38,942 nucleotides of DNA. It comes from a virus. Position 1 is the first letter of the stretch, and every line of letters starts with the position of its first letter. The position numbers and the translations under genes are program-made. Under the pieces are notes generated by a model that ran no database searches, was not told the DNA's origin, and saw only the letters and a program-made list of their open reading frames with translations. This document shows positions 1-38,942 of this stretch, piece after piece. Location of the stretch: the IMG/VR virus record IMGVR_UViG_3300011114_000270, positions 1 through 38,942 of that record, one strand, 5' to 3'.

Positions 1-169
1 ACCGCTTCAGAGTATGAAGTGGCAGCAGTCAGATTTCGCAACGTAATCAAGGCAGAACCAGCAGCCAAATATGAAACGTAAGTTGTGTAAGCACCAAGCG
101 CACTACCAGTGGTATTGCTTGATACGTTCACAATGATGGTGTCATTGATGGAAATCATGCTGTTGGTCA
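1..169. repeat. Terminal direct repeat, copy 1 (circle-closing overlap)
   Basis: Bases 1-169 are identical to 38774-38942. Reading through the join restores one uninterrupted gene (138 aa), so the ends belong together. This fits a circularly permuted headful-packaged genome or a circular assembly with an overlap. The unit length is then 38,773 bp. Confidence 0.95.
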
Positions 170-12820: not shown

Positions 12821-13306
12821 CTACCCTGGATCGTCCTGGTCATGCACATCTTGCACATTCGATGCACTCAGGCGCGGTGTAACGTCAACAACGTCAACAA
12901 GGCGCGCTTGGGCGGCCGCTAGCGCACCACTAATAGATATGCGGGTATCGCTGACCTGGACGTCGAGGCGGTCGCCATACTTGCTAGGTGCCAGCTTAGA
13001 TAGGACCCAGCGTCTAGCGTCTATTTGAAGCTGGCGCTGCCTGACCATACCGGGGTCAGTGGCACCATTGTCTAGGGTTGGTATAGGTGCATCAGCAAGC
13101 GTTAGGATTTGATCAACCATAGCGTCTAAAAGGGCTCCGCGCGCCTGCGCATAACGCTCCGCCAACGCCGGAGAATCGTCAACCGCTCGAAGAAACGTCT
13201 GCGCAGTCAGGCCGGCTTTAAGGCAGCTTTGGCGCATCGACAGACCATCTGCCATGTATTCAGGCACCAGTTCAGCAAGTTGCTCTCTATTTTTCAGCGC
13301 TGCCAT
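12821..13306 (-). CDS. Terminase small subunit, Sf6 gp1-like
   Basis: This roughly 161-aa protein recognises the packaging site and feeds the large subunit. The N-terminal half looks like a helix-turn-helix (MADGLSMRQSCLKAGLTAQTFLRAV). The central motif QLQIDARRWVLSKLAPSKYGDRL is the signature segment of the Sf6-type small terminase. The C-terminus is acidic and flexible. GGAG lies upstream; either GTG 13309 or ATG 13306 may be used. It is the first gene of the late leftward operon. Confidence 0.88.
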   Translation of the reverse strand: MAALKNREQLAELVPEYMADGLSMRQSCLKAGLTAQTFLRAVDDSPALAERYAQARGALLDAMVDQILTLADAPIPTLDNGATDPGMVRQRQLQIDARRWVLSKLAPSKYGDRLDVQVSDTRISISGALAAAQARLVDVVDVTPRLSASNVQDVHDQDDPG

Positions 13307-13387
13307 CACTATTCACTCCAAAAAGGGCATCTGCCTAAAAATTAAGCAGATTGACCTAATTTTAAGCATAAACAACCGCAACACGCC

Positions 13388-13433
13388 ATACACAAATGCA
13401 CAACCCTATAGGTTGTTGTGCATGTGCATGTAT
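13388..13433. repeat. Long imperfect inverted repeat
   Basis: ATACA and TGCACAAC (13388-13392, 13397-13404) pair with GTTGTGCA and TGTAT (13415-13422, 13429-13433), leaving small internal loops. A shorter alternative stem CAACC-ctata-GGTTG lies inside. It resembles a protein-binding operator or an origin cruciform. Confidence 0.6.
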
Positions 13434-13456
13434 TTTGGCATGTTCTGTGTCAATAC

Positions 13457-13489
13457 CTTACACAATGCATTGTGCATACATTGTGTAAG
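13457..13489. repeat. Perfect 11-bp inverted repeat containing a 14-bp palindrome
   Basis: CTTACACAATG at 13457-13467 and CATTGTGTAAG at 13479-13489 are exact reverse complements. The uninterrupted palindrome CACAATGCATTGTG occupies 13461-13474. This is the most symmetric sequence in the genome and a likely dimeric-protein operator. Confidence 0.7.
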
Positions 13490-13494
13490 AAATG

Positions 13495-13510
13495 TAAGGG
13501 TAAACCCTTA
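13495..13510. repeat. 7-bp inverted repeat with a 2-nt centre
   Basis: TAAGGGT-AA-ACCCTTA, a near-continuous palindrome between the larger repeat at 13457-13489 and the first rightward gene. It could be an operator half-site pair. Confidence 0.5.
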
Positions 13511-13608
13511 GTCAAAATACCTGGTTTACTGTCACCTATGTGACTGACTGACTGTAATAAAATCCGTGACACTACTTGACGTCAGTAACCCAAACCTAGG
13601 AATAAACC

Positions 13609-13842
13609 ATGTCACTCTCTGAAATGAACCGCACCACTTACATGGCGCATCGTGCCAACATTCGAGCCAATGGTGAGCGCCATGCTTTGCCGCGCATCGA
13701 ATGCCCATTAGAGCGCGAAGACATGGCCTATCTTTCCAACCAAACATACGACCATCTCTTGCAGCGTCTGGCCTATCGCAAGCTCGGCGAAGTGGAAACG
13801 CCGCGCAATGCTTTTATGTTGACAACTCCATTTAAAGTCTGA
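13609..13842 (+). CDS. Small early-type protein of unknown function (77 aa)
   Basis: AGGA eight bases before the ATG supports the start. The protein is soluble, basic and Arg/His-rich in the N-terminal half (MNRTTYMAHRANIRANGERH), with no membrane segment or recognisable motif. It is the first gene of the rightward cluster leaving the inverted-repeat region and is followed by two hairpins. Position suggests an early takeover or regulatory protein; the family is not recognised. Confidence 0.7.
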   Translation: MSLSEMNRTTYMAHRANIRANGERHALPRIECPLEREDMAYLSNQTYDHLLQRLAYRKLGEVETPRNAFMLTTPFKV

Positions 13843-13846
13843 CCCT

Positions 13847-13877
13847 ATCCTGTAGGCCATGCCGTGGCCTATGGGAT
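13847..13877 (+). promoter_or_regulatory. Interrupted 11-bp hairpin between small genes
   Basis: ATCC-TG-TAGGCCA, loop TGCCG, TGGCCTA-TG-GGAT, immediately after the 77-aa gene's stop. No T-run follows, so it is unlikely to be a simple terminator. A second hairpin, GATGTC-ATCC-GACATC (13875-13890), overlaps its right end, so the two could be alternative structures ahead of the GP88-like gene. Confidence 0.55.
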
Positions 13878-13907
13878 GTCATCCGACATCGTTAACTTGG
13901 AGAAGAA

Positions 13908-14579
13908 ATGAAGCACACCCAGATAGCAACGGCCGTCAAAATTTCAGTCACTAGCAAACTAGACGGCATTCGATCATGGAGTTTGCAAGCTCTTGATACC
14001 TGTCCCGGTAGCATCGAATCGCCCGGAGTGTTAGTCGATGCTTGCAAGGGCTGTTACGCCACACAAGGTAATTACCGTTTCGCAAATGTCAAAGCCCCTA
14101 GGGAATTTAATCGAACCGATTGGCAGCGGTTTAATTGGGTCGACGATATGGTGTCCGAATTGGAGCGGGATAAATACTTTCGATGGTTCGATTCGGGCGA
14201 TATGTACTCTCTCGCATTGGCGGAGAAAATTTGCGAAGTTATGCGCCGTACGCCATGGTGCAAACACTGGCTTCCAACTCGGATGCATAAGTTTCCAAAA
14301 TTTCAATTGGTACTGCGTGAGATGTCGCAGCTATCTAATGTGATGGTGCGCCCATCTAGCGATTCGATTGTTGGTGAATTTATATCTGGGTTACATGGTT
14401 CGGTTATCGTGCCTGACAGCCGTGTGAACCCCGACATGGTCACACTATGCCGAGCATATGAGCACGACGGGAAATGTAATGGATGCCGAGCATGTTATGA
14501 CAAATCAATTCCCGTTATCGCATATCCCGCCCATGGTAAGACCATGCAAAAAGTTATCCGAATTAAAGTAGCAGCGTAA
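13908..14579 (+). CDS. GP88-like Cys-rich phage protein (possible Fe-S enzyme)
   Basis: The 223-aa protein matches my memory of the phage Gene product 88 family. It has CPG near residue 32, ACKGCYA near 44-50, a conserved core (WFDSGDMYS, MRRTPWCKHWLPTRMHKFPKF, VMVRPSSDSI) and a C-terminal cluster CNGCRACYD near 195-203. The CxxCYA element and overall plan recall the Gp37/Gp68 (DUF5131) proteins, which look radical-SAM-like. An iron-sulfur centre is likely, but the reaction is unknown. GGAGAAGAA precedes the ATG. It shares no operon partner of known pathway. Confidence 0.7.
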   Translation: MKHTQIATAVKISVTSKLDGIRSWSLQALDTCPGSIESPGVLVDACKGCYATQGNYRFANVKAPREFNRTDWQRFNWVDDMVSELERDKYFRWFDSGDMYSLALAEKICEVMRRTPWCKHWLPTRMHKFPKFQLVLREMSQLSNVMVRPSSDSIVGEFISGLHGSVIVPDSRVNPDMVTLCRAYEHDGKCNGCRACYDKSIPVIAYPAHGKTMQKVIRIKVAA

Positions 14580-14585
14580 TTAACT

Positions 14586-14610
14586 GTTAACCCTATTGAC
14601 TAGGGTTAAC
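14586..14610 (+). promoter_or_regulatory. Perfect 10-bp hairpin
   Basis: GTTAACCCTA, loop TTGAC, TAGGGTTAAC lies just after the GP88-like stop codon and before the next gene. No run of T follows. It is the third such intergenic hairpin in this small cluster and could be an RNA-processing, attenuation or protein-binding site. Confidence 0.6.
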
Positions 14611-22104: not shown

Positions 22105-24120
22105 ATGGCAGACCTCTCAAATATCCTCGGTGGCCCTTGGTCGCCACCCCCTCAAAAACCTATCAACTCACCAGAGGATCAACTCAAAGATGCCATGCTG
22201 GCCGCAGGCTTGAAGCCACCGGATGTGATCCACCTTGATGGCAAGCTGCACCGTTTTAACAGTGGCACCAAAGGCGAGAAGGGCCACGACAAGCCTGGTT
22301 GGTACGTGGCCTTTAGTGATGGCGTACCGGCTGGGCGCTTTGGCTGCTGGCGATCTGGGTTTGAATCTAGTTGGAAAGCTGACATTGGCCGCAGCTTGAC
22401 GCCGGTGGAAGAAATGGCGCAGTCCCGCCGCTTGGCAGAGGCCAAAACCCAGCGTGACGCCGAGGTGAAAAAGTCCCGCGAGGTAGCGGCAAATACCGTC
22501 GATCTCATCTGGTCGCAGGCCGGGGCAGCAAGCCCTGAGCATCCATACCTTCAGCGCAAAGGCATCAAGGCGCACGGCGCACGGATTACGGGTGACGGCA
22601 GGCTGATGGTTCCGTTGTACAACTCAGACGGCGAACTCTCAAGCATCCAGTATATTGACCATGCTGGTGGCAAGCTGTATCACCCTGGTGGACAGACCGG
22701 CTCGATGTATTGGCTGGTCGGCAGCATGGATGACGCCACCACTCTCTACATTGCCGAGGGCTTTGCCACTGCTGCCACCATTGCCGAGGTAACAGGCCAG
22801 CCCTGCGCGGTGGCTTACAGCGCCAGCAACCTAGTTCCGGTGACGGGGATTCTGAAGGAAGGCCATCCGACGCTGGACATTTGCATTGTGGCCGACCACG
22901 ACGCCAGTGGTGTTGGGCAACGCTATGCCGAGCAGGCGAGCGCCAAGTATGGGGTACGCATGACAACACCGCCAGTGCCAGGTGACGCCAATGATTACGT
23001 CCAAGCAGGGCATGACTTGGCTTTGTTGTTGAAGCCCCAAGAAATAGCCAATTGGTCAGTAGATGGCAATGATTTTTGCGGTCAACCTGCGCCTATCTCA
23101 TGGTTGGTAAAGCACTGGATTCAGGACAAAGCACTTGTGATGGTGCATGGCCCTAGCGGGGGAGGGAAGACGTTTGTTGTGCTTGATTGGATGCTGCACA
23201 TGGCGGCAGGAAAGCCAAGTTGGTTTGGTCACAAAGTGAAACCCGCGAATGTTTTTTACATGGCTGGCGAAGGCCATCATGGTTTGAGAAGTCGATTGGC
23301 CGCTTGGAAACACAAGCATGACGTAAAAAATTTCAACTCTATTCGGATTACAAAATCTGGTTGTGACCTCAACACTGCTGAAGGCTACTTAAAAGCCGTC
23401 ACGGAATTGCGTAGCTTGCCCCAAAAATTTCAGGTCATTGTCATTGACACTTTACATAGGTTTTTAGCCGGTGACGAGAACAGCGCCCAAGACGCCAAGA
23501 CCATGCTGGACGCCTGCGCTGCATTGATGCAAGAGTTTGGCTGCACCGTCATTCTGGTTCACCACACAGGCGTCAGCGAGGAGGCCCAGCACCGTGCGCG
23601 AGGCAGTTCAGCATGGCGTGGTGCTTTGGACATTGAAATCAGCGTCATACCCGCCAAGGGCGACAAGTCCATTGAAATTGTGCAGCGCAAGAGCAAAGAC
23701 GCCGAGATGGCCGCGCCGGTCTACGTTGACCTTGAATCGGTGGCTATACCCGGTTGGTTTGATGAAGATGGCGAGGCCGTTACCAGCGCAGTGGTGGTGA
23801 AGGGCGAAGTGCCAGAGTCTAAGCAAAAAGATAAGTCACTCGGGTTTGCAGATTTTGAGAAAGCCTGGTGGGCATCAGGCGCAGAGGAGCGAGGCGGCGC
23901 ACCTTATCTCACCAAGTCAGTGATGCGCGACTACGCCGTAGCCAACGGCATCTCAACCTTTGCTGGCGCACTTGCGGCTGGTTCACGCCGAAACTTGATT
24001 GATGGCAAGAACGCCAGGTACATCATCAATCTGCTGGACGCCAAGCTGATTGAACCCCATGAGAACGGCTGGATTGTGATTGATCCTGGTACAGCAAGCG
24101 GAATGATGTTGAAGAAATAA
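22105..24120 (+). CDS. Toprim primase-helicase
   Basis: This 671-aa replication protein has a Toprim fold with YIAEGF (Glu 218) and DHDASG (264-269), plus GDAND near 293-297. An AAA_25/RepA-like helicase domain follows, with Walker A GPSGGGKT at 349-356 and Walker B VIVIDT at 444-449, then HHTG and an arginine-rich RGSSAWRGAL segment. The first 90 residues have no zinc ribbon; they contain GWYVAFSDGVPAGRFGCW, common in these phage primases. It starts the rightward operon and probably combines primer synthesis and unwinding at the fork. Confidence 0.92.
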   Translation: MADLSNILGGPWSPPPQKPINSPEDQLKDAMLAAGLKPPDVIHLDGKLHRFNSGTKGEKGHDKPGWYVAFSDGVPAGRFGCWRSGFESSWKADIGRSLTPVEEMAQSRRLAEAKTQRDAEVKKSREVAANTVDLIWSQAGAASPEHPYLQRKGIKAHGARITGDGRLMVPLYNSDGELSSIQYIDHAGGKLYHPGGQTGSMYWLVGSMDDATTLYIAEGFATAATIAEVTGQPCAVAYSASNLVPVTGILKEGHPTLDICIVADHDASGVGQRYAEQASAKYGVRMTTPPVPGDANDYVQAGHDLALLLKPQEIANWSVDGNDFCGQPAPISWLVKHWIQDKALVMVHGPSGGGKTFVVLDWMLHMAAGKPSWFGHKVKPANVFYMAGEGHHGLRSRLAAWKHKHDVKNFNSIRITKSGCDLNTAEGYLKAVTELRSLPQKFQVIVIDTLHRFLAGDENSAQDAKTMLDACAALMQEFGCTVILVHHTGVSEEAQHRARGSSAWRGALDIEISVIPAKGDKSIEIVQRKSKDAEMAAPVYVDLESVAIPGWFDEDGEAVTSAVVVKGEVPESKQKDKSLGFADFEKAWWASGAEERGGAPYLTKSVMRDYAVANGISTFAGALAAGSRRNLIDGKNARYIINLLDAKLIEPHENGWIVIDPGTASGMMLKK

Positions 24121-38736: not shown

Positions 38737-38942
38737 TTACGATGCGCCGTGAATGACTGAGAAATTGATAATCACCGCTTCAGAGTATGAAGTGGCAGCA
38801 GTCAGATTTCGCAACGTAATCAAGGCAGAACCAGCAGCCAAATATGAAACGTAAGTTGTGTAAGCACCAAGCGCACTACCAGTGGTATTGCTTGATACGT
38901 TCACAATGATGGTGTCATTGATGGAAATCATGCTGTTGGTCA
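38737..38942 (-). CDS. Small virion-type protein, 3' part (start across the circle junction)
   Basis: This is the remaining part of the 138-aa gene that begins at 380. The frame is open at the right edge of the window. The ATG at 38931 is an internal Met, not the true start. The C-terminus ends AVIINFSVIHGAS. See the 1-380 entry for composition and context. Confidence 0.8.
   Translation of the reverse strand, partial: TNSMISINDTIIVNVSSNTTGSALGAYTTYVSYLAAGSALITLRNLTAATSYSEAVIINFSVIHGAS
38774..38942. repeat. Terminal direct repeat, copy 2
   Basis: This is the second copy of the 169-base terminal overlap. It carries the middle part of the structural gene whose start lies at 380 and whose stop lies at 38737. 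It should be collapsed onto bases 1-169 when the genome is circularised. Confidence 0.95.

Follow-up and report, generated by a model that had tools for sequence, protein, structure and literature searches.

A repeat-rich region beside terS as the probable replication origin of a freshwater phage, with the C-terminal domain of its primase-helicase as candidate reader

Introduction

What is the function of a short intergenic region that is crowded with inverted repeats and lies between oppositely directed genes, next to the gene for the terminase small subunit (terS)? The question is raised by a freshwater phage genome of 38.9 kb, complete or nearly so, which we analysed over its whole length of 38,942 nucleotides (hereafter the window). 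The ends of the window, 1-169 and 38774-38942, form a perfect 169-bp direct repeat, indicating a circular or terminally redundant genome of about 38,773 bp. The original prediction offered three readings for the region at 13310-13608: an operator, an origin or a packaging site. Its description of the setting is accurate, as terS starts at 13309 on the minus strand and a plus-strand gene starts at 13609.

Results

Repeats of the intergenic region

The region and its surroundings contain the following features:

12821-13309, minus strand: terS, flanking gene (Pfam Sf6_terminase, PHROG terminase small subunit)
13310-13608, no strand: divergent intergenic region of 299 bp with the proposed replication origin, marked by its repeat density and an AT peak
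13329-13351: inverted repeat ATCTGCCTAA/TTAAGCAGAT in the terS leader; on the minus strand a T-run comes after it, so that it is terminator-like
13385-13439: hairpin 1 (GCC...GGC), with the apical stem ACAACC/GGTTGT (13400-13405/13411-13416) and the loop CTATA
13440-13456: spacer, where relatives have TTTTGYC at 32-35 nt from the loop; the motif of the window, CTGTGTCAATAC, is degenerate
13457-13499: iteron cluster, CTTACACAATG / ATTGTGCA / CATTGTGTAAG / TGTAAG half-site, including the 14-bp palindrome at 13461-13474
13497-13508: palindromic element AGGGTAAACCCT, frequent in window-type relatives irrespective of the word
13561-13573, plus strand: promoter-like element AATCCGTGACACT, common to relatives whatever the word (relaxed motif in 25/37)
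13609-14579, plus strand: flanking early genes, a 77-aa ORF (from 13609) and a GP88-like gene (from 13908)

Every inverted repeat named in the original prediction is present. The perfect 14-bp palindrome CACAATGCATTGTG lies within a perfect 11-bp inverted repeat, CTTACACAATG (13457-13467) / CATTGTGTAAG (13479-13489), and the inverted repeat at 13393-13426, CAAATGCACAAC/GTTGTGCATGTG, belongs to the longer and imperfect hairpin 1. What had been overlooked is that the short word in hairpin 1, the arms of which contain the iteron words ACACAA and TGCACAA, is also the word of the second cluster. The inverted repeat at 13329-13351, whose sequence is not conserved in relatives, probably lies outside the origin. 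The AATCCGTGACACT element is a probable early-gene promoter; a sigma-70 consensus scan found no promoter at 13561-13573. Downstream, the GP88-family gene (13908-14579) adjoins the origin and stays its neighbour in many relatives, and directly behind it an inverted repeat, GTTAACCCTA/TAGGGTTAAC (14586-14610), is probably a terminator.

The repeats were set against 2000 dinucleotide shuffles of this 299-bp region. A palindrome of at least 14 bp arose 42 times, a perfect inverted repeat of at least 11 bp with a spacer of at most 15 nt arose twice, and the real density of repeated 6-mers was reached in 0/2000. The stretch 13371-13530 is the genome's most repeat-dense 150-bp stretch. A cluster of like short repeated words, as in iteron-type origins, is thus found here, and beside the iterons there is an AT-rich stretch, modest in degree (100-bp AT peak of 0.65 at 13464, the 99.4th percentile of the genome). 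Cumulative GC skew, the check that had been suggested for an origin, reaches its minimum at 22.2 kb, does not switch at 13.4 kb and hence does not point to the region; it is uninformative as an origin test, and gene orientation and local bias dominate in it.

A common plan in relatives

Relatives were collected by IMG/VR scans with four window proteins (GP88-like, TerS, TerL and primase), the primase of one relative and a more distant primase, which gave several hundred loci. Most of the 37 distinct terS-upstream regions share one plan: a hairpin, TTTTGYC, a second cluster of short repeats, often AGGGTAAACCCT, and then the promoter-like element. The hairpins are topped by CTTAAG, CTATAG, CTTAG or similar, with TTTTGYC about 33 nt from the loop, a distance that stays within 32-35 nt in 35 of the 38 distinct hairpins (search window 18-48). 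Hairpin and TTTTGYC occur together in 36/59 origins and never in 100 mononucleotide-shuffling rounds. The sequence of the apical stem is free to vary while its complementarity is kept; the hairpins had been preselected for at least five apical pairs, so that the 'own 1.00' apical complementarity is by construction. By eye, hairpin 1 seemed always to have a 2-nt bulge; only part of the set bears this out, as a change of register removes the bulge from several hairpins.

The repeated word itself differs among phages: TTACACAA, TTGCACG, GCATCG, GGTAAC, GGAAC, GCCCCCT, CGGTACA, GGTTCA and others. Within one phage, the hairpin arms and the second cluster share the word, with 17.0 shared 5-mers as against 11.6 when the halves are randomly re-paired; the maximum after 2000 random re-pairings was 14.2. 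The conservation of the palindromes in relatives, proposed as a check on the original prediction, therefore has a divided outcome: the palindrome sequence is not conserved, whereas the architecture is, and the sequence shifts with the reader protein.

The position of the element also varies. In a more distant branch (L335-L342, L349-L426) it lies directly behind the primase gene, apart from L393, which has no element behind its primase; in the window the primase-helicase gene is about 8.5 kb, and the part that encodes its predicted winged-helix domain about 10 kb, from the repeat region. Four cultured phages, which have a full-length relative at 50-55% identity and were not used in building the idea, served as an out-of-sample test. 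In each of them (Salicola CGphi29, Idiomarinaceae 1N2-2, Alteromonas PB15 and XX1924) the densest repeat segment of the genome is directly behind the primase gene, with the words GGGGACA, CGGTACA, GGTTCA and GGTTCA, respectively. Three MAG contigs likewise carry the element behind the primase gene; in one of these, L430, it is only the second-densest segment. Exact DnaA boxes occur at 1.67/kb near the origins of relatives versus 0.011/kb elsewhere (about 150-fold, 35/59), and none is found near the region in the window.

Several further observations were made in these genomes. In L432-L437, which include the cultured phages, a small gene annotated as a transcriptional regulator (Cro/XRE in some records) directly precedes the primase gene; the window shows no such gene, and the gap between its primase gene and the divergent gene is only about 115 bp. 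Five phages (L169, L174, L193, L194 and L196) have a TerL 82% identical to that of the window and a primase only 34-37% identical, and an origin-like element of the same plan, with the word TTCGGTACA, adjoins their primase gene; from their sequences, the replication module appears to have been exchanged and its logic kept. L052 has a second dense repeat array (word TGCAACATAGTGCAATGCAACAT) upstream of TerL in addition to its origin-like element, and L335 and L336 carry long tandem arrays (CCCAGGCACG... and CATCGCCCAGA...) about 800 bp behind their origins.

Covariation of the word with the primase-helicase

Which protein goes with the word? No DNA-binding partner had been recognised before, and covariation with the word now makes the product of 22105-24120, by its C-terminal domain, a strong candidate:

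22105-24120, plus strand: primase-helicase of 671 aa, proposed initiator (Toprim_3 and AAA_25 RecA-like; AlphaFold2 model)
23785-24117, plus strand: predicted C-terminal winged-helix domain, proposed iteron reader (AF2 model and structural neighbours)
23914-24039, plus strand: hypervariable recognition stretch, residues 604-645, which covaries with the iteron word

This gene stood out in a first table of the window genes against 14 relatives. In the primase alignment the difference lies in the last ~90 residues, with about 95% identity among phages that have the word of the window and 25-72% identity, over residues 601-640, in phages with other words. Across 59 dereplicated phages, word similarity (a k-mer cosine, a metric of our choosing) correlates with identity in residues 604-645 at r=0.91. 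With the primase core held constant the partial correlation of the C-terminal stretch is 0.88 (permutation p=0.0005), as against -0.05 for the core given the C-terminal stretch; as the phages share ancestry, fewer independent events underlie the permutation p-values than these suggest. When the comparison is slid along the primase-helicase, 571-660 alone stands out strongly. Other proteins, TerL (r=0.06), TerS (r=0.17) and Sak4 (r=0.10), do not track the word. Some other genes reach r of about 0.5-0.67 (0.67 being one gene in 7 phages only), and fall to 0.05-0.46 when the C-terminal domain is controlled for. By covariation, then, the words match the specificity of a cognate initiator, as in an iteron-type origin.

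In the relatives whose element adjoins the primase gene, joint inheritance of gene and origin could be a source of this covariation. It is unlikely to be the whole explanation, because a partial correlation of 0.77 (p=0.0002) is still found in 20 window-type phages, whose gene and origin are separated by about 8-10 kb, and because of a swap in L266: its primase core is 86% identical to that of L300 and 81% to that of the window, and both its C-terminal domain and its word are of the window type.

Other relatives offer similar natural experiments. The primases of L423 and L426 differ at 20/671 residues, three of which are in the recognition stretch (Q626V, S632A and P633T), and their iterons are GGTAAC (6 copies) and GGAAC (9 copies), respectively. 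L385 has 96 differences from L426, yet has V626/A632/T633 and GGAAC in common with it. In L084 the usual place beside terS is occupied by another sequence, but the C-terminal domain is of the A type; the A-word element expected from this was located farther upstream.

The predicted C-terminal domain

Modelled in isolation with AF2, the C-terminal domain has a mean pLDDT of 80.5 (>90 for most of the ordered part) and a predicted order of helix, strand, helix, helix, helix, two-strand wing and helix. Its structural neighbours are mostly winged-helix proteins (CRP, PrfA, SmtB, linker histones, ORC), with modest scores (Z <=7.1). Foldseek with this domain gave no E-value <0.001, and a PDB sequence search with its profile gave no convincing match, the best being a designed protein (9e-4). 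On the strength of the model we predict that the domain is a winged helix. The hypervariable stretch sits between the second helix and the wing of the predicted domain, and it is there that winged-helix proteins contact DNA. The helicase domain matches RSF1010 RepA (1g8y, E=5e-5).

Discussion

Comparison of these sequences argues that the region at 13310-13608 is, very probably, the replication origin of the phage, and that the primase-helicase of the phage itself binds the iterons there through its C-terminal winged-helix domain. Of the three readings first offered for it, the origin is thus strongly favoured, as the C-terminal domain tracks the word. The covariation points to a functional link between word and domain and does not, by itself, indicate the step at which they act together. 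Several results weigh against this reading: no exact DnaA box is found near the region in the window, the GC-skew minimum is elsewhere, L393 has no element behind its primase, and the winged helix is a prediction for which the Foldseek E-values are weak.

Initiation could proceed as follows. Several copies of the primase-helicase would bind, via their C-terminal winged-helix tails, to the iterons of both the hairpin arms and the second cluster. The iteron-bound copies would place RecA-like helicase rings on the adjacent AT-rich DNA, and the Toprim primase domain, brought to the first single-stranded template, would start the first primers. By analogy with RSF1010, the recurrent hairpin with TTTTGYC at its fixed distance may serve for single-strand initiation. 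That the domain binds the iterons directly, that the helicase is loaded and primers are made there, and that the hairpin has any special role, are steps that we infer beyond the covariation. DnaA may help in relatives, because host DnaA boxes flank the element in many of them.

In a different arrangement replication would start elsewhere, and the words would be regulatory sites through which the primase-helicase, by its C-terminal domain, acts as a repressor on the divergent early and late promoters. Divergent gene sets do flank the region, relatives have the promoter-like element in common, and small regulators precede the primase in the cultured relatives. However, distant relatives carry the element not between divergent promoters but behind the primase gene, and DnaA boxes flank it there. 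Furthermore, a scan of ten window proteins again gave no repressor-type match, in agreement with the original prediction, which had recognised no repressor gene. We consider a purely regulatory function unlikely, although the element may possibly be both an origin and an autoregulator, or have a side role on the flanking promoters.

A packaging (pac/cos) site read by the terminase small subunit encoded alongside is very unlikely. Such sites are often situated beside terS, and the region does adjoin this gene. But the correlation of TerS identity with the word, already low, falls to a partial value of -0.08 given the C-terminal domain, so that, by covariation, the recognition by TerS expected of such a site is not apparent. 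L003 has the same word with a 47%-identical TerS and L088 a different word with an 89%-identical TerS, and in distant relatives the element is behind the primase gene.

Least probable of all is a structured RNA, leader or antisense, on one strand: the hairpins are strong and the minus strand of the window folds with a z of -5.9, but 37 relatives show no strand preference (mean z of -5.3 for plus and -5.1 for minus, minus being better in 16/37), no Rfam family was matched, and such an RNA would explain neither why two separate elements have a word in common nor why this word covaries with a protein domain.

As an origin with its own initiator, the system resembles several known ones. Phage P4 alpha has a C-terminal winged-helix origin-binding domain, ori/crr iterons and an SF3-type helicase. 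As in P4 alpha, where primase and helicase are fused in one initiator (PMC7145576), both are fused here, and the helicase carries, by prediction and covariation, a C-terminal winged-helix iteron reader. The core is not of the SF3, D5 or DUF927 kind, but AAA_25 and RSF1010-RepA-like, and no solved relative of the C-terminal domain was found by sequence. In SaPI Rep and SCCmec Cch2 the helicase C-terminal domain recognises short repeats directly behind its own gene, and the SCCmec site also has inverted repeats and potential hairpins (PMC7581432). The iterons of our distant branch are likewise behind the helicase gene, whereas the window origin is about 8.5 kb from it; and the SaPI/SCCmec helicases are DUF927-related, D5/Primase_Cterm, unlike the Toprim primase and RecA-like AAA_25 helicase found here. 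The system works like the P4 alpha and SaPI Rep initiators, yet it is not a member of their family, because the helicase core differs.

In RSF1010 the helicase, the primase and the iteron binder are separate proteins, RepA, RepB' and RepC. The helicase domain here is like RepA, but the primase is of the Toprim type and fused with it. The RSF1010 primase RepB' is of the archaeo-eukaryotic type and uses hairpin single-strand initiation sites, ssiA being a hairpin that it reads (PMC4434180). In the Vibrio PLE satellites, the origin iterons covary with the type of initiator, and the two are exchanged together as modules (PMC8263062); their RepA, however, is a RepA_N family initiator, with few module types and no fused primase-helicase. 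As far as a limited literature search goes, three things are new: a fused Toprim/RecA-like initiator with an origin of hairpin and iterons, how many classes of word there are, and a switch of specificity that is near-minimal.

The recognition stretches and words form pairs, AKQY-GGTAAC, AKVY-GGAAC, AKNYM-GGTACA and AKNYT-GGTTCA. It is conceivable, and we put it forward only tentatively, that a single protein chain, its winged-helix tail reading the iterons, recognises one ~200-bp element, opens it and primes it, that the hairpin and TTTTGYC are the initiation site of the Toprim primase, and that these pairs reflect a residue-to-base code. If such a code were true, the origin word of an unseen phage would be predictable from its recognition stretch.

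In conclusion, most origins of tailed phages whose hosts are uncultured have not been mapped, and here one can be located from sequence alone. As the repeat word and the reader protein point at each other, the approach should extend to contigs in their hundreds. For bench work, the system is present in four cultured phages, Salicola CGphi29, Idiomarinaceae 1N2-2, Alteromonas PB15 and XX1924. The family forms a natural series in which a winged-helix reader goes with more than a dozen words, the smallest step being a pair with three recognition-stretch differences; how replication initiators acquire new targets and still function can therefore be tested directly.
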